This document shows positions 6,044 to 17,487 of a stretch of 64,000 nucleotides of DNA, in pieces. The translations under genes were made by a program, and so were the position numbers. Positions within the stretch are counted from its first letter, which is position 1, and each line of letters starts with the position of its first letter. The notes under the pieces were generated by a model. It saw only the letters and a program-made list of their open reading frames with translations. It did no database searches and had not been told where the DNA came from. The stretch is from an uncultured Clostridia bacterium (GTDB taxonomy: Bacteria > Bacillota > Clostridia > Oscillospirales > Ruminococcaceae): contig CAMVNQ010000013.1 in the NCBI GenBank assembly GCA_947168885.1, positions 1-64,000 on the forward strand, given 5' to 3'.

Positions 6044-7816
6044 TTACTGAATTGTCATAAAATGACCTGTTTTGCCGTCGTACCAGAAGAATACATTCTC
6101 CGCAACAGAGTATATATTATTTACACCGGCAAGCTTTACAGCCTTTGTTGCCTGCTTCATGCTTCTGTTTATCAGATATACCTTTCCGTTTTTCATAACG
6201 GGAGCGTATTTGCCGTTTCCGACAAAAGCACCTGCATCATCAAATTTTGCGAGCTCCTTGCCGCTGCTGTCAAGATATCCCCACTTTCCGTCGGAAAGCT
6301 TTACAAGATAGGTCTTCCCGTTATCCATTGTAATCATATAATCATACTTATTGCTTATGTATTTTCCGGATGCGACATCTACAAGAGCATACTTGTATTC
6401 ATAATTATCACTGCTCACAGCATATCTGTATTTAGCGACCGCCTTTGTCCCGAAAAGCTTATCACCGAGAGAGTCAAGTTCAAAGTCCTTCTTTCCTTCG
6501 GTAAACACGCATATTTTCTTGTCGCCAAAATAATAATGCTTCTTATTATCGAACGAATAAGCATACACAGGTGAAGCGGCAAAGATACGGCAATACGCAA
6601 AGTAATTTGCCCCTTTTACCTCAGCACGCGATGCCAGCTTGTCGATCGTGGTCATCTTACCTGTCTTGTCTATGCTGTATATCGCTCCGTCCCAGCCGGT
6701 AAAGTCCTTCGAACCGTCGCCCACATACTTTCTCTTGATCACGATACAGCTGTCACTGCCGCTGAAGCCGAACCACGATCCATCGTATTCAGAAAAATCG
6801 AATTTGTGAGTCTTTATCTTCTTGCCCTTCGGAGATATTATGCTGAGCGTAAGTATATTCCTGCTCTTGTCATAGACAGTCTCCGAAATATAGCCGTCCG
6901 GCGTCAGCGATATAGGGTTCGTGGTATTGTAATAAGGTGTTATTTTGTTCTTTGACGGGTCGTATTTCACCGCGACCAAATGTACCGTTTCGTTTTCTAA
7001 ATATCCTAGCACACCGTAATTGCCGTTTGAAAAATCACCATTTGTGGAATTTCCCCAGTTGGAATGCTTCGTTATGCTTCTGTCTATCGTCACCTTCACA
7101 GCATTCAGCTTTCCAGTCTTTCTCCAGTTTTCGAGAGCGGTCTCATCTATTTTGTAAATGCCTCTTTTGTTCTTGTTATCGGTAATGTAATAAAGATCGC
7201 TTCCCAAATAGGCGTAGGAATTTGAACCGCTCAAAATATCCGATATCTTTACGGATAAAATTCCGGATGCCGAGTCCTTTGAAGATGACGAAGCTGATGC
7301 TTTCGGATAGTCAGCTCTGAATATCACCTTTCCCGTCTTCTTTTTATCCTGAAAGCTGCATACGGAAACGACGTAGGTTCCCTTCTTTACCTTGTAGGAT
7401 GCAGACACAACGGTCGTTTCCTTATTTTTGTCCCAGTCGAGCTCCAGATTGCCGTAATCGTCGTACTTTCCCTTTCCTGCGGTGACACTTAATTTCGATG
7501 CCTTGACATTGTCGCCGCTGCTGTCGTAAAGATCAAGATTCCAGTCCGAAACACCGACCTCTAAGTTTAGCGTAAGTGTTCCGGCGTTACTGCAATCCAC
7601 ACGGAACCAATACTGATCATACTGCTGTTCAAGATAGCCGGTGTATGTCTTTCCGTCCTTTGCGACATCGGTTTCGTTGATTATCTGCGTGATCGTGCGT
7701 GTTGTGTTGTAATCCGCGAGATTTGCTGCGGACGCGCTCACCGGCGCCAAGGTGAGCGACGACACGACTATCGCGGATGTGAGCAGAAATGCCCATATTT
7801 TTTTCAGTCTTTTCAT
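6044..7816 (-). CDS. Secreted protein with pre-peptidase-like and WG-like domains (paralogue 1)
   Basis: 590 residues, signal peptide to about residue 31 (PVSASA-AN). Residues about 35-165 resemble a bacterial pre-peptidase C-terminal-type beta domain (YDQYWFRVDCSNAGTLTLN, VGVSDWNLDLYDSSGDN). A beta-propeller-like section follows, with repeated YYI.D..NKRGIYKID units. Near the C-terminus there is a WG-repeat-like stretch (DGKWGYLDSSGKEL). It is a paralogue of the 576-residue protein just upstream, with the same order throughout, and is separated from it by 18 bp. AGGAGG precedes the ATG. There is no membrane anchor, so it is probably secreted. Function is unknown; a role in surface binding or assembly is inferred. 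Confidence 0.75.
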   Translation of the reverse strand: MKRLKKIWAFLLTSAIVVSSLTLAPVSASAANLADYNTTRTITQIINETDVAKDGKTYTGYLEQQYDQYWFRVDCSNAGTLTLNLEVGVSDWNLDLYDSSGDNVKASKLSVTAGKGKYDDYGNLELDWDKNKETTVVSASYKVKKGTYVVSVCSFQDKKKTGKVIFRADYPKASASSSSKDSASGILSVKISDILSGSNSYAYLGSDLYYITDNKNKRGIYKIDETALENWRKTGKLNAVKVTIDRSITKHSNWGNSTNGDFSNGNYGVLGYLENETVHLVAVKYDPSKNKITPYYNTTNPISLTPDGYISETVYDKSRNILTLSIISPKGKKIKTHKFDFSEYDGSWFGFSGSDSCIVIKRKYVGDGSKDFTGWDGAIYSIDKTGKMTTIDKLASRAEVKGANYFAYCRIFAASPVYAYSFDNKKHYYFGDKKICVFTEGKKDFELDSLGDKLFGTKAVAKYRYAVSSDNYEYKYALVDVASGKYISNKYDYMITMDNGKTYLVKLSDGKWGYLDSSGKELAKFDDAGAFVGNGKYAPVMKNGKVYLINRSMKQATKAVKLAGVNNIYSVAENVFFWYDGKTGHFMTIQ

Positions 7817-7834: not shown

Positions 7835-9565
7835 TTATTGTGCGTATGTCATGAAATAATTATTTTTCATGTCGAACCATGTATACAGCTCGCTGCCGTA
7901 TGTGGTGAGCAGCGGGAGTGAACCGAGGTCGGCGTTCAGGGACACCTTCTTCATATTGCGGTCGATAAGGTAGGTCTGCCCATTCTTCAGCACCGGAGCG
8001 TATTTGCCGTCAGCGGCGAAGGCTGCCGCGTCGCTGAACCACCCAAGCTCCATGCCGTTCGCGTCGATATAGCCATACTGACCCTTTTCGTTCTTTACGC
8101 GGAATATCTTTCCGTCGTAGGTCACCATATTGTAATAGCTCTTGCTGACGAGCTTACCGGTGGAAACATCGATCAGAGCATACATTTTGCTCATTCCAAG
8201 GCTGTCCGAATACAATGCTACAGACTTTGTGCCCCACAGTCTGTCGTCAAGCCTTGTGAGCTCGAGTTTTCTGCCGTTTACGGTGAAACCGGACAGTTCC
8301 TTGCCGGAAAGGGAGTATGTTTTCTTTTTGTCGAAGGAATAAACCTCCGTGGGCGCGGAAGTCCCCGCTTTTATCATCAAAAAGTAGTTGGTGCGAAGAT
8401 ATCCGGCGCGTGCAGCATATTTCTTCAGCGTTGTCTTATTGCCGAAGCGGTCGATAAGATATACGCTGCCACTCCACTTATCGTTCTTTTCATCGTATGT
8501 ACCGACGGAGAGACCACAGTATGCGTTGCCGGTGAATTGCCAGTAATTCCAGTATTGGTCAGTTACATCAAAGCTGAGAGTTTTGACTTTTTTACCCTTG
8601 TTGTTGAAAAGGTCCAAAGTGAGCTGCTTATCACCGTTGCTGCGCTTCCACTGTGAGATATATCCCTCCGGCGATACCGAGAAGGGAACGTCAGAGGTGT
8701 AGTAAGCGGTGATACTGCCGGATTTCTTGTTGTATTTGACAGCGCTGTAATATTTAATACCGTTCTTTTGATATGTCAGCACACCGTAATTACCGTTGGT
8801 AAAGCTGTATAATACGCTCCAGTCACTGTTCGAGGAGACCGATGTGTCAACGGTAAGCTTTTTTGCCTTGAGCTTTCCGGTCTTTCTCCAGCTTTCGAGA
8901 ACAGTCGCGTCTATCCTGTAAATATCGCCTTTTCCGTTATTATCCGCGATATAATAAAGGTCTCTTCCGAGATATTGATAAAAGCCCGCTTTCTTCTTTA
9001 TATCAGAGACAGCGGTATATATCAGCTTCTTTTGGCTCTGTTCGACGGACGCCGATGAGGCTTTCGGGAAATCAGCACGGAAAAGTACCTTTCCCGTCTT
9101 CTTTTTATCCTGAAAGCTGCATATCTGAGCTATGTATGTACCTTTCTTGACCTTGTATGAGGCTGACAATACCGTGTTTTTTTTGTTTTTGTCCCAATCC
9201 AGTTCAAGATTACCGTTTTCTTCGTATTTTCCCTTGCCGACGGCGACGCTGAATTTTGATGCCCTGATATTATCGCCGTTTGCATCGTAAAGGTCCATGT
9301 TCCAGTCAGAGACACCGACTTCTGCGTTCAATGTCAGAGTTCCTGCGTTTTTACACTCGATCCGGTACCAATACTGATCGTACATATTTTCGAGAAAGCC
9401 GGAATAAGTCACTCCATCCTTGATAATGCCAGTCTCCTCGATCACCTGATCTATAGTACGTACAGTGTAGTAATCCGCAAGATTAGCTGCAGACGCGCCT
9501 TGTGCCGAAGCAGCGAGCATAACAGCTGACATTATCGCCGCGACAAATTTTCTGATAGCTTTCAT
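7835..9565 (-). CDS. Secreted protein with pre-peptidase-like and WG-like domains (paralogue 2)
   Basis: 576 residues with a signal peptide (AQGASA-AN) and the same architecture as the 590-residue neighbour. Shared blocks include YDQYWYRIECKNAGTLTLN, the VGVSDWNMDLYD block and SYKVKKGTY..QICSFQDKKK. The WG-like tail reads KGQYGYIDANGMELG. This is the first gene of the operon. AGGAG lies upstream of the ATG. Tandem duplication and divergence is the simplest origin. No catalytic motif is visible. Confidence 0.75.
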   Translation of the reverse strand: MKAIRKFVAAIMSAVMLAASAQGASAANLADYYTVRTIDQVIEETGIIKDGVTYSGFLENMYDQYWYRIECKNAGTLTLNAEVGVSDWNMDLYDANGDNIRASKFSVAVGKGKYEENGNLELDWDKNKKNTVLSASYKVKKGTYIAQICSFQDKKKTGKVLFRADFPKASSASVEQSQKKLIYTAVSDIKKKAGFYQYLGRDLYYIADNNGKGDIYRIDATVLESWRKTGKLKAKKLTVDTSVSSNSDWSVLYSFTNGNYGVLTYQKNGIKYYSAVKYNKKSGSITAYYTSDVPFSVSPEGYISQWKRSNGDKQLTLDLFNNKGKKVKTLSFDVTDQYWNYWQFTGNAYCGLSVGTYDEKNDKWSGSVYLIDRFGNKTTLKKYAARAGYLRTNYFLMIKAGTSAPTEVYSFDKKKTYSLSGKELSGFTVNGRKLELTRLDDRLWGTKSVALYSDSLGMSKMYALIDVSTGKLVSKSYYNMVTYDGKIFRVKNEKGQYGYIDANGMELGWFSDAAAFAADGKYAPVLKNGQTYLIDRNMKKVSLNADLGSLPLLTTYGSELYTWFDMKNNYFMTYAQ

Positions 9566-9683: not shown

Positions 9684-9712
9684 TTGACATTGCAGCGAAT
9701 CTGTGGTATAAT
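9684..9712 (+). promoter_or_regulatory. Consensus sigma-A promoter of regulator-kinase module 1
   Basis: TTGACA, 17-bp spacer, TATAAT, a full consensus match about 40 bp upstream of the start at 9752. It diverges from the operon promoter at 9607. Confidence 0.85.
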
Positions 9713-9751
9713 GTTAAACGGTAAATAAAAACGAGATACAGGAGCGGCACT

Positions 9752-10177
9752 ATGACCAGCAAGAGCACAGACGACCTTTTTGAGTTCATAGACCAGAACA
9801 GCGCGGAATTTCTTAACAACATAGATGAACACAAGCTCGGCAATACGCGTCAGCTTCTGTCTGAATACCTGTACGAAAAAATGAATAAATATAACGTCGT
9901 TCCGCACGATCTTGTGGTAAGGACTAATATCAGTCAGCCCCACATATATCAGATTCTATCCGGTACACGCGGCGTGAGCAGGGAAAAGCTCATCGCTATG
10001 GCTATAGGAATAGGTCTTGATCTTGATGAGACTCAGCGTCTCCTTACCCTAGGGCAGTGTGGTACACTGTATCCGAAGGTCAGACGCGACGCGGCAATAA
10101 TATGCTGTATAAACGAGCATATGGATATGTATGAAACCAATGAGTGCCTTAAAAGAATCAACGAAAATGAGCTTTGA
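9752..10177 (+). CDS. Cro/XRE-like regulator paired with a membrane kinase
   Basis: 141 residues. A helix-turn-helix of the Cro/C1 type lies at about 53-88 (VRTNISQPHIYQILSGTRGVS). After it comes a block LYPKVRRDAAIICCINEHM that recurs in recognisable form in the 376-residue protein at 14814. Its last 11 bases overlap the start of the kinase gene, so the two are probably translated together. It may bind DNA, or it may be an adaptor of the kinase, since the XRE fold in such pairs is not always DNA-binding. It is driven by a consensus promoter at 9684. Confidence 0.75.
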   Translation: MTSKSTDDLFEFIDQNSAEFLNNIDEHKLGNTRQLLSEYLYEKMNKYNVVPHDLVVRTNISQPHIYQILSGTRGVSREKLIAMAIGIGLDLDETQRLLTLGQCGTLYPKVRRDAAIICCINEHMDMYETNECLKRINENEL

Positions 10178-12068
10178 TGAAGAATTCGAAAAAATATATA
10201 AAAATGACTGCAAGCTTCCCGAAAAGATATCGGAAGCTTACAGTTTTTTTTCGTGTCTCAAATATTCCGATGAACGTCAGGTCTATATAGTAAAAGATCC
10301 CGAGGGTAAAAGCTTTGTGCTTAAAATAGGTGTGGGTGATAATTCGCTTCGTATCGAAAATGAATACCGTATCGCTTCACTTATATACAACTCACTGAAA
10401 AATGAGAACTTTCCGCAGCCTGTCATGTTTTTTCGCGAGGATGACCGCACATATTATTTAAGAGAGTATATTGCCGGTGTAACTCTTAGGGACAAGATTG
10501 ACAAGAACGGAGTTTTTTCCGATCAGGAGACCTGTTCGATTGCATATAATATCTGTTCGATACTTGAAAAAATGCATACTCTTCCGGAAAGGATAATCTG
10601 TCGCGATATCAAGCCCGAAAACATTGTGATCTCTGCGGATGGACAGTATCATATCATAGACCTTGACGCTGCACGCACAGTAAAGCCCGATAATGAGAGT
10701 GATACGGTATATCTCGGCACACGCGCCACAGCGGCACCGGAACAGTTCGGGTTCGGTCAGACCGACGAGAGAACAGATGTATATGCCGTTGGTATGCTTA
10801 TGCTTTATATGTTAAGCGGAGGCTATGACAAAAAAGAACTGCGCCGCGGGAAAGCAGCAAGAATGATCGAGCGCTCAACGAGATTTGACCCCGAAAGACG
10901 CTACCCAAACATATCAAAAATGAAAGCGACGCTTGCCGGACGTGACCATATAACACAGTTGATCGCTGCCGCTTTGGGGTGCGCCGCTCTGACGGTATTG
11001 GCTGTTTCGCTTTCATATGTTGCGGGAATGAAAAAACCGATCTTAGCCGAACAGACCGCAAATAACGAGATTGAATATAATTCTTATGCCGACACAAGCA
11101 TCACTCCCGAAACGGTGACGGAATACAGTGAAACTGCTATAACAACGGAAGCAGCGACATCCGATACTTCAACGAAGCCTGCGTCAGAGAAGGTCTCGGA
11201 CATTGGCGGCACGTCATCATCGAGACCAGCGGACGAGCCCGATATGTTTGTGACAGCGACACAAACTGTTTCCGATAAAATGTCGTCCTTCACGTTTTTG
11301 ACCGAAGATGCAGAAAATAAAGATATGAGCGATATGTATCGCGCCGCAAATGCCGGTTGGGTATTCAACGACGACGGCTCGTACAGCTATAAATGTACAC
11401 AGGACAACGAAGATATTGTGTTCCGGCTTTTGCCGGAAGAACATTTTGACCTTAAAAAGCTCAGATGCGCGGCTGTCACAGTAAATACCACTGGCTGCGA
11501 GGCATGGTTCTGTCTTACGGCGCCGGGCACAGACGGAGAATGGTTCCACTCGAACGCAATGGGTATAAAGGACAAACCGGAAAAAGTGATCTTCAAAACG
11601 CCCGACGGCATTTCGAGCGGTCTTCTTCTTACTGTAGGCAGCATGACAAAGGGTTCGATCGTTACTGTAAGGGACATCTCTTACTCGGATAATGAATATA
11701 CCGGACCGGATTTTTGGCACGAAAACGACGACGGCAGCTTTACATTCACCAAAGACACCGTTACCTCACTTTCATTTTTCCCCAAAAGCGATATCGAGCT
11801 CTCAAAAGTGAACTATGTGTATGCGGATATAGAAGTCGAGGGTGAAATGGTATGCGGGATCGCAGGTTTCAACAGCGAAGACGGCTTTACATATTGTGAC
11901 GGGTATAATTTAAAAAATGAAAGCAAGCATCTTTGCTGGGATCTTAAGCACGACCTTTCTAACGGCAAAATTAGCCAAAGTCTGGCATTTGACTGCTACT
12001 TTAATTCTGACTATCTTACAGCGACAGTAAAAAACATCGTTTTCTCTGAAAAGCCGATTTTGGATTGA
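10167..12068 (+). CDS. Receptor-like transmembrane Ser/Thr protein kinase
   Basis: 633 residues. A Hanks-type kinase domain spans residues about 25-258: Lys53 (SFVLKIG), catalytic loop CRDIKPENIV with Asp147, metal-binding DLD at 165-167 (a variant of DFG), APE at 190-192, and DVYAVGMLM. The usual glycine loop is poorly conserved. A single membrane helix lies at about 262-285. Outside the membrane is a Thr/Glu/Ser-rich linker, then two related beta-rich modules (each containing a W..NDDGS block at about 390 and 515) resembling carbohydrate-binding or sugar-sensing folds. So it is predicted to sense an outside ligand and phosphorylate an inside target. The start overlaps the regulator by 11 bp; an earlier in-frame start would lie deeper in that gene. 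No PASTA domain is present. Confidence 0.85.
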   Translation: MSFDEEFEKIYKNDCKLPEKISEAYSFFSCLKYSDERQVYIVKDPEGKSFVLKIGVGDNSLRIENEYRIASLIYNSLKNENFPQPVMFFREDDRTYYLREYIAGVTLRDKIDKNGVFSDQETCSIAYNICSILEKMHTLPERIICRDIKPENIVISADGQYHIIDLDAARTVKPDNESDTVYLGTRATAAPEQFGFGQTDERTDVYAVGMLMLYMLSGGYDKKELRRGKAARMIERSTRFDPERRYPNISKMKATLAGRDHITQLIAAALGCAALTVLAVSLSYVAGMKKPILAEQTANNEIEYNSYADTSITPETVTEYSETAITTEAATSDTSTKPASEKVSDIGGTSSSRPADEPDMFVTATQTVSDKMSSFTFLTEDAENKDMSDMYRAANAGWVFNDDGSYSYKCTQDNEDIVFRLLPEEHFDLKKLRCAAVTVNTTGCEAWFCLTAPGTDGEWFHSNAMGIKDKPEKVIFKTPDGISSGLLLTVGSMTKGSIVTVRDISYSDNEYTGPDFWHENDDGSFTFTKDTVTSLSFFPKSDIELSKVNYVYADIEVEGEMVCGIAGFNSEDGFTYCDGYNLKNESKHLCWDLKHDLSNGKISQSLAFDCYFNSDYLTATVKNIVFSEKPILD

Positions 12069-12073
12069 TAAAT

Positions 12074-12734
12074 CTAATTGACAATATACAAAAATATTTT
12101 TATTACAGCATCACCCGCAGCCTCTCCAAAAAGGGCAAGTATATTGTTTTGCTTGATTTCAAGCTGACGGAGAATAAAATTAGTTACAAAAGAATCCTGT
12201 GGCGTACTTAATATCTCGTTTGGCTTTGCATACTGTATAATAGTACCACCGTTTATAATCATAACCTTATCCGAAATACAAGAGCTTCCTCAGGGTCGTG
12301 GATTACTATAATGGTTGTAAGATGAAACTCCTTCGCAATCTGCCTGATTTTGTCTTTTATAGATTCCTTTATTACACCGTCAAGTGCACTGAGTGGTTCA
12401 TCGAGAAGCAGAATTTTCAGTTTCAGAACAAGAGGTGTGCAAGGGCACGCGCTGCTTCTGACCACCAGAAAGCTGTTCAATAATTTTGCTGAGATGTTCA
12501 CGAAGGCCAAGCAGTTCAATCAAATCATTTACTTCATCCTTACTTGAAATATACGGCTTATTCTTCAAGCCTTATATAATATTATCGTAAGCATTCAAAT
12601 TAGGAAACAGAGCATAATCCTGAAATACGATGTTGAAACCTCTGTCTTCCATAGGTGTTTTTGTTATATCATGAGTATCAAAAAAATATCTCTCCGCAGT
12701 CCGGCTGAATAATTCCAAGAATTATATTAAGAAG
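12074..12734 (-). pseudogene. Decayed ABC-transporter ATP-binding protein
   Basis: Fragments in several frames add up to a PotA/FbpC-type ATPase: [36 protein letters not shown] (Q-loop), EQLSGGQKQR (signature), ILLLDEPLSALD (Walker B), IIVIHDPEEAL (H-loop) and MIINGGTIIQYAKP. The Walker A end is missing. A stop follows NII near 12570. There is a frameshift after QKQR near 12450 and another near 12285. The broken N-terminal end abuts the end of the truncated serine recombinase at about 12735. No permease or binding protein is nearby. Non-functional. Confidence 0.85.
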
Positions 12735-13557
12735 CGTTGGTAGTAAGTAGGTAGGTAATGTCGGCTTTCATAGTTGCGGGTGCATAACGGTTCTTTTCAA
12801 GGCGTTCCTGCGCCATTTTGAACATCTCCTTTGTTATTATCGCAGGTATTCCGTCCTCAAAGACCACATCACGGTACCGATATTCGCCCATGTACTTTCG
12901 AACCTGCAGCATAGCGGACACCGATGTCTTGGTGAAAGGCTTGTTCTTGCAGGTCGTGACGTGGTTTTTGTTCAAATAAGCGACTATATCCTTGATCGGA
13001 CGGTTGTTGATGTACATTGTGAACGCTTCCCGGATGAACGGCGCGACCAACTGGTCGATCTGGTAGTGCTTCTGCTCGTCGATGTAGTACCCTGTCGGCA
13101 CGTTTCCCCCGTTATACTGCTTTTTCAAGGCGTTTTCAGTCATGCCGCGAATAACCTTTTCCGACAATTCCGCTGAGTAATACTCGGCATAGCCTTCAAG
13201 CACGGATTCGAGAATAATACCCTCCGCGCCTTCGGATATAACTTCGGTCGCAGACACCACCTTGACACCGTTCTTCCGAAGCTGCATCTTATAACGGGCG
13301 CTGTCATAGCGGTTGCGGGCAAATCGGTCGAGTTTCCACACAATGACTGTATCGAACATATTCTTACCGCTTTCCGCGATCATGCGCTGGAATTCTGGGC
13401 GGTTGTCGGTCTTGGCTAACATTGCACGGTCTATGTAGGTGCCGACCACGGTCATGTCCTTCTTTGCGGCGAAGTCGCGGCACTCGCGAAGCTGCCCCTC
13501 AATGCTTTCCTCGCGCTGATTATCACAGGAATAGCGCGCGTAAATAACTGCTTTCAT
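12727..13557 (-). pseudogene. Large serine recombinase, C-terminally truncated
   Basis: 276 residues from the ATG at 13557 (GGAGGAG upstream). The resolvase domain is intact: Ser10 in IYARYSCDNQ, then DRFARNRYDSA. The recombinase domain follows (VPTGYYIDEQKHYQ, AFTMYINNRPIKDIVAYLN). The protein stops at MKADITYLL, exactly where relatives continue into the zinc-ribbon (CG.CG) and coiled coil. Those DNA-binding and regulatory parts are gone, so it cannot be a working integrase alone. The breakpoint coincides with the broken ABC ATPase gene, so one deletion probably removed both ends. Confidence 0.85.
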
Positions 13558-13591
13558 CTTCTCACTCCTCCTTGAATACTTCATTGTCCCT

Positions 13592-13620
13592 ATTATACCA
13601 CATTTTAAGCACGATTTCAA
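13592..13620 (-). promoter_or_regulatory. Sigma-A promoter of the serine recombinase
   Basis: Reading on the minus strand: TTGAAA, 17-bp spacer, TATAAT, about 35 bp before the ATG at 13557. Confidence 0.75.
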
Positions 13621-13661
13621 TGGTTTAAAGCGCGATTTCTGATATTTTTTCTTAAAAGCTA

Positions 13662-13690
13662 TTGCATTTTGCGCCGTTTTCAAGTATAAT
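13662..13690 (+). promoter_or_regulatory. Sigma-A promoter of the toxin-antitoxin pair
   Basis: TTGCAT, 17-bp spacer, TATAAT, 36 bp before the ATG at 13726. It is divergent from the recombinase promoter. Confidence 0.75.
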
Positions 13691-13725
13691 ATAGATACAG
13701 ACCAATAAGCATAGGAGGTGCAATA

Positions 13726-13917
13726 ATGGCTACATCAAGTATTTTTGCGAGTTTCAACATCAACGACAGCAAGACTGCCGAAGCATTCGTTGACGCTCTT
13801 GACCAGTCCTCCAAAGAACCCAGAAGAAAGCCTTTGTCACCTGCCCCGCTGCATATAACAGACAAGGACAAGATTTTAGCGTTCTTCGCAAAGGATAGGA
13901 AAAAGCCCAATGAATAA
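13726..13917 (+). CDS. Small antitoxin-like protein paired with a GNAT protein
   Basis: 63 residues, beginning MATSSIFASFNINDSKTAEA and ending in a basic, Pro-rich tail. Its stop codon overlaps the following gene by 8 bp. GGAGG lies 7 bases before the ATG. Proteins starting this way commonly precede GNAT-type toxins in Clostridia (from memory), so an antitoxin role is inferred from position, size and tight coupling. No DNA-binding fold is obvious. Confidence 0.55.
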   Translation: MATSSIFASFNINDSKTAEAFVDALDQSSKEPRRKPLSPAPLHITDKDKILAFFAKDRKKPNE

Positions 13918-14494
13918 TCAGTCGATCATAAATATACTTGACTTGTTGGATTCGCTCGGGGAGGATACTGTCAACGCTATCCTCTCCGATTTTTCCTGCC
14001 CGAAAAACCCGGAAATCGAGGATTTTCTGCGGAAAAACGCTGTAGAGTTCGCCAAGCGCAAGATGTCTATAACATACCTCGTCTTTGATGAGAACAAGCG
14101 CTTTACTGCATACTTCACGCTCACGCACAAGTCGTCACTGATACCGATAGATATGCTCAGCAAGACCAGTATCAGGAAACTATCCATGCACGCCAAGCTC
14201 GACGAGGCGACCAACTGCTATGATATTTCTGCATTCCTGATAGCACAGTTCGGCAAGAATTTTGCCGTTGATGACGGCAATTCCGTTGTCGGAGACCGGC
14301 TTATGGACGCAGTTTTCAGCATTTTGGAAGAAGCTCAGCGTCTTATAGGCGGCGGTGTTATATTCCTCGAATGTGAAGATAACGACAAGCTGCTCAGCTT
14401 TTATCAGAACGATAACAACCGGTTCAAGCTCTACAGCTCCCGTTTTTCCGAAAGGGAGCAGAAAAAATACTTACAGCTTTTAAGATTTTTCTGA
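13910..14494 (+). CDS. GNAT-fold acetyltransferase, probable toxin of a TA pair
   Basis: 194 residues. The GNAT pattern is ITYLVFDENKRFTAYFTL (beta 2-3), DISAFLIAQFGKNFAVDDG (beta 4 and acetyl-CoA loop), a helix with VGDRLMDAVFSILEEAQRLIGG, then VIFLECEDNDKLLSFYQND (beta 5 to alpha 4, with FY near the active site). Known GNAT toxins of this layout acetylate charged tRNAs. That activity is inferred here, not shown. It is co-transcribed with and overlaps the 63-residue upstream protein, and is followed by a terminator. It sits between a broken recombinase and kinase module 2, a typical cargo position. Confidence 0.65.
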   Translation: MNNQSIINILDLLDSLGEDTVNAILSDFSCPKNPEIEDFLRKNAVEFAKRKMSITYLVFDENKRFTAYFTLTHKSSLIPIDMLSKTSIRKLSMHAKLDEATNCYDISAFLIAQFGKNFAVDDGNSVVGDRLMDAVFSILEEAQRLIGGGVIFLECEDNDKLLSFYQNDNNRFKLYSSRFSEREQKKYLQLLRFF

Positions 14495-14498
14495 TATG

Positions 14499-14528
14499 TA
14501 CCCGCCAGAAAAAGGCGGGTATATTTTT
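14499..14528 (+). terminator. Rho-independent terminator of the TA pair
   Basis: Stem TACCCGCC / GGCGGGTA with an A-rich loop, then TATTTTTA. A second, related hairpin follows at 14559-14587 (CCTACCCGCC / GGCGGGTAGG) without a T-run. Confidence 0.8.
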
Positions 14529-14695
14529 AATAGTATATGTGATACTTTTAACAATCTGCCTACCCGCCCCGATCTGAGGCGGGTAGGTGTTGCTATATTC
14601 ACGCAGCGGGCTTATTATCCCTCACATTCTGCGCGTCCATAAATTCCTCGAACATCTTTCTGCCCTCTTCGGTGTCATAGTACCAAAACACGAAT

Positions 14696-14733
14696 ATAAA
14701 AATGGATTCCAATGAGCGCCGGAATCCGTTTTT
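14696..14733. terminator. Bidirectional terminator
   Basis: A-run, GGATTCC stem, 10-base loop, GGAATCC, then T-run. It isolates regulator-kinase module 2 from upstream transcription. Confidence 0.65.
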
Positions 14734-14763
14734 ATATTGACCGAAACGCTTATGATATACTGA

Positions 14764-14792
14764 TTGACAAGGATTCATATACATGATATAAT
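14764..14792 (+). promoter_or_regulatory. Consensus sigma-A promoter of module 2
   Basis: TTGACA, 17-bp spacer, TATAAT, 22 bp upstream of the ATG at 14814. Confidence 0.85.
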
Positions 14793-14813
14793 CTAAGAAA
14801 AGAGGGTGAGCAG

Positions 14814-15944
14814 ATGAACAGCGAACATACCGAGCTTACACGCGACAGCCGCACCGATATGCTTTTTGAGGAACTTTGCTTCGGAGCTCCGATAAATGCG
14901 GAAGAGCCCGAAGATGTTATTGAAGGTGTTGAAAGTGCCATAGAGCTTGGCGAGCGTCCGGTATTTCTCGAAGGTCTCGCGGAGCGGCTTACGGAACTCG
15001 GAACATCGTGCACAGTTTCCGATACGGACATCATGTTATCCGAAGTAAAACGGCGCTTCAAAGAAATACTTGGCAAGACCTGTCCGAAAGCGGTCGGAAA
15101 CTGGGTAAGCGGAACACTGCCGGGGCTTGTGAACCGCCAGAATAATTACGATCTCTGCTATGCCCTGGAAATGGACTATAAGCAGACCACAGCATTCTTC
15201 ATCAAGAATTTTCTCACGATACCGTTCAACTGCAAAAGCAAGACGGACGCGATATATTATTACTGCTTTTACCACAATAAACCGTATTCCGCAGCCGCGA
15301 AAATGCTCGATGAAGCGAAATGTTTTGTATCGCAGGAATACGCTCATACCCACACTTCGCAGATACGGGATTTCATACGAAGCACCGATAATTACGAGGC
15401 TTTTCTGAAATATCTATCGACCCATTGTTACGATAATGAGCAGCAGTTTCAAGTCGCACGGAAGATCATCAATGACGAGATCGAACAGGTCAAGGCGTAT
15501 ATTCTCCGTTTCGGTAATTTCGACAGCGGAGAGAACCTAAGCGCAGACAGGCTGAACAGTCAGACTCTTGTTGAGCTGCTCGGACACAGATATCAGAAAT
15601 CCGGACGAAAAGTCAAGGACAGAAAGCTACCGAAGCAATTCACGGAATCGCTTCCGAACGATGTCACACTCGGCAGGATAATCAACGGCGACAGCGTTTC
15701 TTATGAGGTGCTGCGGAAAACGCTGATGCTGCTGAAATTCCATAATTTCTACGTCGATGCGTACAACGACGATGAACAGACAACCTACGATAATTTGCAG
15801 GATTTCTATGCGGAGCTGAACAATGTGCTGTACGACTGCGGATTCGCGCCCATCTATGAACGTCACCCGTTTGACTGCCTTCTTCTGTACTGTGCAAACT
15901 CGCTGGAGCCGATAGACACGCTTCACCTTGTCGGGAAATTTTAA
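14814..15944 (+). CDS. Double Cro-like regulator/adaptor upstream of a kinase-NTPase
   Basis: 376 residues, no named family recognised. Two segments mimic the 141-residue regulator at 9752. Residues about 85-165 contain NWVSGTLPGLVNRQ, then KTDAIYYYCFYHNKPYSAAA. Residues about 270-376 contain VTLGRIINGDSVSYEVLR, then FAPIYERHPFDCLLLYCANS. Each is a Cro-like helix pair followed by the same DA-I-CC-type helix. So this is a fused, diverged duplicate of the small regulator. GAGGGTG precedes the ATG. The kinase-NTPase starts 61 bp downstream, probably in the same transcript. It may regulate, recruit or present a substrate to that kinase. Many canonical HTH residues are lost, so adaptor function is as likely as DNA binding. 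Confidence 0.6.
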   Translation: MNSEHTELTRDSRTDMLFEELCFGAPINAEEPEDVIEGVESAIELGERPVFLEGLAERLTELGTSCTVSDTDIMLSEVKRRFKEILGKTCPKAVGNWVSGTLPGLVNRQNNYDLCYALEMDYKQTTAFFIKNFLTIPFNCKSKTDAIYYYCFYHNKPYSAAAKMLDEAKCFVSQEYAHTHTSQIRDFIRSTDNYEAFLKYLSTHCYDNEQQFQVARKIINDEIEQVKAYILRFGNFDSGENLSADRLNSQTLVELLGHRYQKSGRKVKDRKLPKQFTESLPNDVTLGRIINGDSVSYEVLRKTLMLLKFHNFYVDAYNDDEQTTYDNLQDFYAELNNVLYDCGFAPIYERHPFDCLLLYCANSLEPIDTLHLVGKF

Positions 15945-16005
15945 GAATCAGTTTTTATAAATGCCACACCCGATGTGCTATCATTAAAGAAAGGAGGTCG
16001 ATACA

Positions 16006-17487
16006 ATGGAAAACTTACTGAATACCGGCTCTGTACTGAAAGCCGAAAACCGTGAATACAGGATAATTGACATCATCGGCAGAGGTGCGAATACTGCAGC
16101 ATATATTGCAGAATGCATGCATGACAGCCTGACAAATAAATGTATTTTGAAACAGTATGCGCCGCATGATACAGACAATTTTGAACACGGAAAACAGCTC
16201 TTTATCGAAGCCGCAAAACAGCAGAACAAGATACGTCAGCTTAGTGCGCTTACCAATCAGACACCGCCCGTGTGTCACATCTTTGAAGCTGACGGAACAG
16301 CATTTTCCGATGTTGCAATATACAACGGAACAACGCTCGACAAGCTGAAAGACCTGTCTTTACAGCAGTATATCGGGATATGCCTGACGATAGCGAAGAC
16401 TGCGGGATATTATCACAAGTCGGGATTCCTTTGTCTCGACCTCAAACCGGAAAATATCTTTGTTTTGCAGAATTCTCCCGATGATACGATAACTCAGCTT
16501 GTGGAATTCATCGATTTCGACAGCGTTCACGATACTGACGAAAACGCGGAACACAAGTTTTATTCCTACACCCGCGACTGGGCTGCGCCGGAACAGACTA
16601 ACCCGTATTCATCGTCGAATATATCCGCCGCGACGGATATTTATACTATCGGCGAGATCGTGTTTTTCCTGCTTTTCGGGCGGCACTCTACCGACAGCGA
16701 GCACCGCGGATTTTCCGAATATCCGTTCGATGAATGCAAGCGGGAATTCCGGAAATATGTGATGCGGCTTGATGTCCGCTCGATGTTCTCGGAGTTGTTC
16801 CGGAACACTCTGCGCTCGTCAACGGCGAACCGCTTCGATAACACAGAGCCGCTTGTGAAGCTGCTTGAAAAGCTGATTTACGAGCTGTCCCGCAAGGACT
16901 ACATTATCCCGCGTCTGCCCGCTGTTTCACCGATATTTGTCGGCAGAGAAAACGAGATGAAACGTATATCCGAAAGTCTCGCTGACAACCGTGTTCTTTT
17001 CATCACGGGCATCGGCGGTATCGGCAAAAGCACGCTTGTCCGGAACTTCATCAACCGGCAGAAAACGAACTATGATGTGATCGCATATCTCGAATACGCA
17101 GGTGACATCAAAAGCACATTCACAGACGATTTGCAGCTACAGATCAGCACCGTGACACGTCATGACGGCGAAAGCGTTGACGAATATTTCACGCGAAAAC
17201 TGTCCTGTTTCAGAAGCATTTGTGAAAATAAAAAAGTCCTGTTCGTTATCGACAACTATGCCGATATGCTGAACAAAGACGTGCAGAAAATAATCGACTC
17301 CGGATATGATACGATCATCGTGACCCGCCGGCAGCTCCCGAAGAATAGCTTTGCGGTAATGAATATCGACGCTATGACGAAATGCCGGGAGCTGATAGAA
17401 GAGATCGACCGGATAAACAATCAGTACCGCGAACATGGCGTGTTCAGAGAGGTGAATGAAGAAATCAGGGAAGCTGCGGAAATATAA
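16006..17487 (+). CDS. Protein kinase fused to a STAND/NB-ARC-like NTPase, C-terminus short
   Basis: 493 residues, no membrane helix. Kinase domain, residues about 17-295: GRGANTAAY at 25-33, Lys49, catalytic LDLKPEN with Asp145, DFD at 170-172 in place of DFG, APE at 194-196. NTPase, residues about 308-450: VGREN at 312, Walker A GIGGIGKST at 335-343, Walker B VLFVIDNYAD at 411-420, sensor IVTRR at 437-441. This is the order of STAND (NB-ARC-type) ATPases. They normally continue with a winged helix and a long repeat sensor; here only about 50 residues follow. So the sensor is absent, supplied in trans, or lost. GGAGG precedes the ATG and an extended -10 (TGCTATCAT, 15976-15984) lies upstream. 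A signalling or immunity-like role is inferred. Confidence 0.8.
   Translation: MENLLNTGSVLKAENREYRIIDIIGRGANTAAYIAECMHDSLTNKCILKQYAPHDTDNFEHGKQLFIEAAKQQNKIRQLSALTNQTPPVCHIFEADGTAFSDVAIYNGTTLDKLKDLSLQQYIGICLTIAKTAGYYHKSGFLCLDLKPENIFVLQNSPDDTITQLVEFIDFDSVHDTDENAEHKFYSYTRDWAAPEQTNPYSSSNISAATDIYTIGEIVFFLLFGRHSTDSEHRGFSEYPFDECKREFRKYVMRLDVRSMFSELFRNTLRSSTANRFDNTEPLVKLLEKLIYELSRKDYIIPRLPAVSPIFVGRENEMKRISESLADNRVLFITGIGGIGKSTLVRNFINRQKTNYDVIAYLEYAGDIKSTFTDDLQLQISTVTRHDGESVDEYFTRKLSCFRSICENKKVLFVIDNYADMLNKDVQKIIDSGYDTIIVTRRQLPKNSFAVMNIDAMTKCRELIEEIDRINNQYREHGVFREVNEEIREAAEI

Follow-up and report, generated by a model that had tools for sequence, protein, structure and literature searches.

Two regulator–kinase modules in one region

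Positions 9684–17487 of a 64,000-nt window from an uncultured Clostridia bacterium of gut or rumen type (contig CAMVNQ010000013.1, assembly GCA_947168885.1) encode two modules, each pairing a regulator with a Hanks-type Ser/Thr protein kinase: R1 with K1 in module 1 and R2 with K2 in module 2 (Table 1). The original prediction, made from the sequence of the window, described module 1 as a Cro-like protein overlapping a transmembrane kinase and module 2 as a 376-residue protein followed by a kinase-NTPase (NTPase, nucleoside triphosphatase), and proposed that the 376-residue protein contains two diverged copies of the R1-type regulator. Here we assess the homology of the two regulators, the linkage of their relatives to kinase genes and the conservation of a threonine that we propose as the phosphoacceptor of such pairs.

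Table 1. Features of modules 1 and 2 (window coordinates)
Feature	Position	Strand	Description
Sigma-A type promoter, module 1	9684–9712	+	TTGACA 9684–9689, 17-bp spacer, TATAAT 9707–9712; read from upstream sequence
R1	9752–10177	+	141-aa single-domain regulator
Thr6 codon of R1	9767–9769	+	Most conserved position among short regulators; putative phosphoacceptor
K1	10131–12068	+	645-aa Hanks kinase with CRDIKPEN and DLD, one membrane helix and outside C-terminal sensor
K1 predicted membrane helix	10959–11030	+	Residues ~277–300; hydrophobic stretch in sequence
K1 predicted extracellular sensor part	11031–12065	+	Near-identical DNA in contig 12 paralogue
R2	14814–15944	+	376 aa; two diverged R1-domain copies, residues 30–170 and 188–362
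Thr181 codon of R2	15354–15356	+	Unchanged throughout the long family; starts the helix that opens copy 2
K2	16006–17487	+	493-aa Hanks kinase with LDLKPEN and DFD (~16060–16695); front of STAND/NB-ARC NTPase (~16936–17295)
K2 deletion junction relative to L209	17373–17375	+	1254 bp missing in frame; aligned pieces overlap by 3 bp

The open reading frames of module 1 are as first described. In the structural model, R1 consists of an N-terminal helix bearing the threonine, a Cro/XRE-like domain over residues 34–104, in line with the original prediction, which structure comparison identified as a five-helix Cro/CI fold, and two C-terminal helices (residues 111–121 and 126–135), whilst its match to the HTH_3 family (HTH, helix-turn-helix) was weak. 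As annotated, the R1 and K1 genes overlap by 47 bp; close K1 homologues begin at a methionine 12 codons downstream, and that start would leave an overlap of 11 bp. The Pkinase family was matched by K1 at 81 bits and by K2 at 53 bits. A crude hydropathy scan also flagged the membrane helix in the K1 homologues of loci L212, L213 and L214, and a search with residues 400–645 found no sequence relative of the outside part of K1 in the PDB. The same genome carries a second R1–K1 pair on contig 12 (L001), the regulator of which is 77% identical to R1 at the protein level. Within the opening 300 bp of R1 the two pairs share 66–73% DNA identity, against 97–100% from ~11250 to the end of K1; the kinase domains, unlike the sensor halves, have also diverged. 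Since the sensor DNA is nearly identical whilst the regulators differ, two modules with diverged regulators probably came to share one sensor by recombination.

The reading frames of module 2, the kinase domain and an ATPase_2/NB-ARC region in K2 were likewise recovered, but the NTPase part is cut short here. Relative to the 91%-identical homologue at L209, 1254 bp are absent in frame, so that the back of the NTPase is gone together with the greater part of the C-terminal region. On account of this missing segment we regard K2 as a shortened kinase-NTPase, and the alignment makes it an allele with an internal deletion, derived from a kinase-STAND protein; the shortened K2 may be unregulated or inactive, or may reflect an assembly error. 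With a kinase and P-loop part only, it does not have the PknK-like layout of kinase, STAND NTPase and helical sensor region. K2 relatives beside long, i.e. two-domain, regulators are mostly 908–1270 aa, and the helical character of the C-terminal tail in the intact relatives was judged by eye. A P-loop follows the kinase domain in 9 of 11 kinases flagged next to long regulators; those at L210 and L216, also beside long regulators, have a membrane helix in its place. Beside one pair of long regulator and kinase-STAND protein, a gene with a CxxGxSRS-type phosphatase motif (L202:5611–6606) was seen by eye and possibly encodes the opposing phosphatase.

R1 is homologous to both halves of R2

Pairwise BLASTP of R1 against R2 gave no significant match (E 3.4). 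A profile built from 31 short (single-domain) relatives scored five of six long proteins above all of 3000 shuffles, whilst R2 of the window, at 13.5 bits, fell just under the best shuffle (14.4 bits). When an alignment of 93 short sequences was compared profile to profile with one of 25 long sequences, R1 residues 14–138 matched R2 residues 30–170 (score 104.4, E 6e-16) and R1 residues 10–122 matched R2 residues 188–362 (score 79.8, E 6e-12), the best score among 100 column shuffles being 18.8. With smaller alignments, one run found both R2 copies (probabilities 96.8 and 78.6) and another the first copy only (98.3). The turn and helix that the original prediction had singled out as shared are indeed the conserved blocks, reading SGTRGVS and RDAAII in R1, SGTLPGLV and TDAIYY in the first copy of R2, and NGDSVS and FDCLLL in the second. 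R1 is thus homologous to both halves of R2 at the level of sequence profiles, and the two-copy architecture proposed for R2 holds. A fold comparison of the whole R2 model matched no HTH structure; the HTH nature of R2 is backed by the sequence profile and not by fold, and on the model its binding to DNA is doubtful.

Relatives of both regulators are encoded beside Hanks kinases

To gauge linkage, loci were collected solely through profile matches to R1 or R2, with no kinase used as a starting point, and the best-scoring matches were fetched; adjacency meant a Hanks kinase within 300 bp, scored with a kinase profile built for this analysis, and duplicates were removed. Some loci with no kinase in the first 1.5 kb were re-fetched with longer flanks, and 13 ‘weak’ rows (fragments, split genes and six Macro-like proteins) were left out of the totals of 98 short, 27 long and 19 Macro-fused proteins. 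Of the short regulators 79 of 98 had an adjacent kinase, as did 20 of the 27 long ones, so that the predicted pairing of this regulator type with a protein kinase is conserved. The two outcomes that the original prediction had given as refuting it, no homology between the regulators and no conserved kinase linkage, were thus both contradicted. Amongst the 79 short pairs, 47 were divergent, 25 had the kinase downstream, four had it upstream and three were convergent; the 20 long pairs comprised 11 with the kinase downstream, six convergent and three with it upstream. When the arrangements (‘none’ included) were mapped on a tree of the 98 short proteins, 24 changes of label were needed, indicating that adjacency has outlasted rearrangement, and the well-supported branches force at least six changes of ‘divergent’. 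At the closely related loci L170, L172, L173, L174 and L175 the palindrome TATATGTTATCATATA is conserved between divergent regulator and kinase genes and is a candidate operator.

Within the genome of the window itself, the three strong R1-type matches and R2 all adjoin a kinase. Comparing 55 HTH_3 matches with eight kinase places by eye gave two direct neighbours, both of R1 type, and a third R1-type gene (C19), unseen by HTH_3, also adjoins a kinase. Named relatives came from Ruminococcaceae, Lachnospiraceae, Ruminiclostridium and Clostridia metagenome genomes; at six such loci the kinase was adjacent in three, one had tandem regulators with a kinase 1.4 kb away, and none was seen in two. 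Two tandem R1-type genes with a kinase one to several genes away were noted at L126:4025–5127 and L236:2388–3390. Outside the class, in other classes of the same phylum, a kinase was adjacent at 8 of 10 loci, which were collected later and bore out the expectation. Of 393 genomes drawn from the class, ~52 had short-type matches with E < 1e-20 (a hand count, among the matches listed); for the order, 48 of 395 genomes held the long family. Distance matrices of regulators and kinases correlated with r 0.73, a value that still includes shared ancestry, compared with at most 0.12 in 1000 permutations. The catalytic Asp of HRD, the catalytic Asn and the Asp of DFG were kept in all 75 linked kinases aligned, which from these residues look active.

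Macro-domain proteins provide a natural comparison, as their C-terminal HTH is truly homologous to the R1 domain (best E 4e-27); they are widespread in Clostridia as single genes, and Pfam confirmed the Macro domain in the two proteins tested. They differ from the kinase-paired regulators in the fusion itself, in the absence of a conserved threonine segment (see below) and in linkage: no kinase was found in the fetched flanks of any of 19 such proteins (0 of 25 with the six Macro-like rows), flanks being mostly ~1.2–3.3 kb on each side and in one case 259 bp only. The Macro fusion is apparently a separate system that uses the same regulator domain. By eye, Macro loci (L107, L108, L109, L123 and others) often lie beside a vWA-like gene (LVFILDRSGSMxGLE).

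The units had also been suggested to be of a kind not commonly described. In topic searches of the open-licence literature we found no paper on the regulator–kinase pairing, nor on the two-domain branch or the invariant threonine, and the pairs apparently form a widespread, undescribed family.

A near-invariant threonine opens the N-terminal helix

Of the 93 aligned short regulators, 92 have a residue at position 6, namely T in 91 and S in one, with neither D nor N. No other column of the protein is as conserved as this one (4.23 bits), which stands ahead of L106 and D113 of the LY..RD signature (4.15 bits each) and the HTH glycine (4.00 bits). Its surroundings are variable, neighbours up to +2 carrying 0.7–1.5 bits. 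Rows matched to an adjacent kinase had T in 71 of 71, and the unmatched rows 20 T, one S and one gap. The long family has an equivalent in T181 of R2, which is T in all 24 sequences with a residue there (of 25) and lies within three residues of T6 in the profile alignment. In the models T6 is the first residue of R1 helix 6–15 and T181 the first of R2 helix 181–190; the N-terminal arm of R1 was modelled less confidently, with predicted local distance difference test (pLDDT) values of 70, 75 and 57 over residues 1–30.

The similarity of the Macro-fused homologues starts at the HTH and, in the alignments viewed, the threonine segment is missing; of the 98 short regulators, 94 have the pattern T-x-x-hydrophobic-x3-hydrophobic ahead of the HTH, compared with 4 of 25 Macro-fused proteins. 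Outside the class, all nine readable N-termini carry the threonine of a TxxL motif (by eye). Some mycobacterial kinases prefer a hydrophobic residue at +3 of the target Thr.

A proposed phosphoacceptor switch and its alternatives

We favour, at a probability of roughly 0.55, the reading that the modules are dedicated Ser/Thr kinase/regulator pairs working in the manner of a two-component system, with the threonine as a phosphoacceptor switch. A Hanks kinase with a lineage-specific input would be coupled to the regulator encoded next door. In module 1 this input would be an outside domain behind a single membrane helix; in module 2, as represented by its intact relatives, it would be a cytosolic STAND NTPase that carries a long C-terminal region. 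Once the input is engaged, the kinase would phosphorylate the invariant threonine that opens the N-terminal helix (T6 in R1), or, in R2, T181 between the two copies. Phosphorylation would then change what the attached domain does; for R1, the simplest effect would be on DNA binding or dimerisation of its Cro/XRE part. In such a pair a threonine and Hanks-kinase chemistry would take the place of the receiver aspartate. We infer each of these steps, i.e. phosphorylation of the threonine by the kinase, its role as the switch and the action of R1 through DNA binding.

The regulator might instead be a local autorepressor of the kinase gene, linked to it through expression control, with the threonine serving as a structural helix cap rather than a phosphosite. 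Such a role would suit the Cro/XRE fold of R1, the 47 of 79 adjacent short pairs that diverge around a common intergenic region, as is typical of local regulators, and the AT-rich palindromes, such as TATATGTTATCATATA, between regulator and kinase in a group of related loci. However, tandem and convergent pairs occur too, and a search of the 47 divergent regions yielded local palindromes only, with no operator common beyond close relatives. Moreover, the near-exclusive use of T (S in a single row, D and N never) is stricter than capping demands, and the long family retains the threonine even though its HTH is not recognisable by fold; we consider this explanation rather doubtful. The same lack of an HTH match by fold in the long form would fit a regulator that reads no DNA and acts as a protein partner of the kinase (inhibitor, adaptor or localiser), its HTH fold serving protein binding or dimerisation. 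The recognition-helix stretch is also oddly conserved for proteins reading different operators (Y64 in 81 of 91, Y66 in 75 of 93 and Q/K67 in 83 of 93). We nevertheless regard a pure protein partner as improbable.

In HipBA a kinase toxin is held back by a small HTH protein, and a comparable toxin–antitoxin or anti-phage role, with the kinase as a restrained toxic effector or the kinase-STAND protein as a phage sensor, could be read into the overlap of the small HTH gene with the kinase gene, the STAND NTPase of module 2, the patchy spread (as in the genome count of the long family given above) and the matches of the PADLOC kinase models PD-T4-6, mad6, MkoA and Avs4 to K1 and K2. Those matches, however, are confined to the kinase or P-loop part, as expected from general kinase homology, and six neighbouring proteins tested gave no further PADLOC match. 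K1 and K2 are Hanks kinases, for which a Pfam search at E 0.1 found no HipA family, and a one-pass membrane sensor kinase would be odd as a toxin, leaving a defence role very improbable.

The dedicated-pair reading may be extended, tentatively and with odds that we place below even, to a class-wide Clostridia family forming a Ser/Thr counterpart of two-component systems. Each module would have one dedicated Hanks kinase and an N-terminal ‘threonine receiver’ helix, inputs (outside sensors, STAND NTPases and zinc-ribbon kinases) would be swapped freely, and the two-domain proteins, whose HTHs decayed whilst the threonine was kept, would have become phospho-switched scaffolds rather than transcription factors.

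Comparison with known systems

The closest analogue is Rv2175c with PknL of Mycobacterium tuberculosis, encoded by genes that we take to be adjacent. The likeness lies in a protein consisting of a DNA-binding domain only, a Hanks kinase and a threonine in the N-terminal arm. PknL is reported to phosphorylate Thr9 in the disordered N-terminus of Rv2175c, and a Thr9Asp phosphomimetic to abolish DNA binding (PMC4601284, PMC6151718). Rv2175c is a winged HTH protein whereas R1 is of Cro/XRE type, and it lacks the two-domain form of the R1 family. Its N-terminal extension is said, in PMC4601284, to be unique to that species, whereas the threonine here is near-invariant across many families. The same review describes phosphorylation of EthR in its N-terminus by PknF (PMC4601284). 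It also reports that PknK of M. tuberculosis, a kinase with a C-terminal STAND domain, phosphorylates the transcription factor VirS (PMC4601284), an arrangement like that proposed for module 2, in which a kinase-STAND protein acts on a regulator. VirS belongs to the AraC family, is unrelated to R2 and has a phosphosite given there as unknown (PMC4601284). Unlike PknK and VirS, homologous regulators here pair with both sensor-type and STAND-type kinases.

Transcription is also controlled by the kinase–regulator pair AfsK and AfsR. EmbR and PknH are another such pair, EmbR docking via an FHA domain (PMC4601284). In contrast to these pairs, R1 and R2 had no FHA or SARP domain in the family search. 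Elsewhere in the genome of the window a trio of kinase, vWA and PP2C-like genes was seen by eye (L004). This resembles the TerY-P triad of kinase, PP2C and vWA, which is not known to include an R1-type component. At L138 a long regulator is flanked by PP2C-like and kinase genes; by eye, the cluster (L138:1–5210) has PP2C-like genes on both sides of the regulator, together with a gene of vWA-like type and a kinase that is recognised weakly.

Surroundings of the modules

The −35 box of the putative module 1 promoter begins 68 bp 5′ of R1 and marks the start of the region examined (9684), and TTGAC–TATAAT pairs of a similar kind lie upstream of the homologues at L001 and L212. Modules 1 and 2 are separated by a recombinase with Resolvase and Recombinase domains (12727–13683) and a 194-aa open reading frame that had no match in a Pfam-type family search. 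On the opposite strand, 5′ of module 1, lie genes for two adjacent, similar secreted proteins (6044–7816, 590 aa, and 7835–9565, 576 aa), one of which has a weak WG-repeat match.

Implications

The targets of Hanks kinases in bacteria have been portrayed as pleiotropic and not exclusive, against which a conserved family of one-to-one kinase–regulator pairs is unusual, and the control of regulators without an input domain is called enigmatic (PMC4601284). Isolated cases of a Hanks kinase acting on an HTH regulator are already known, whereas our topic searches of open-licence papers turned up neither the family nor its two-domain branch or invariant threonine. A kinase and a one-domain regulator that stay neighbours through many changes of orientation, with one residue all but invariant, make for a specific prediction. 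For gut and rumen bacteria, in which Ser/Thr signalling is little known, this would amount to a concrete prediction of kinase, substrate and site for ~100 gene pairs.

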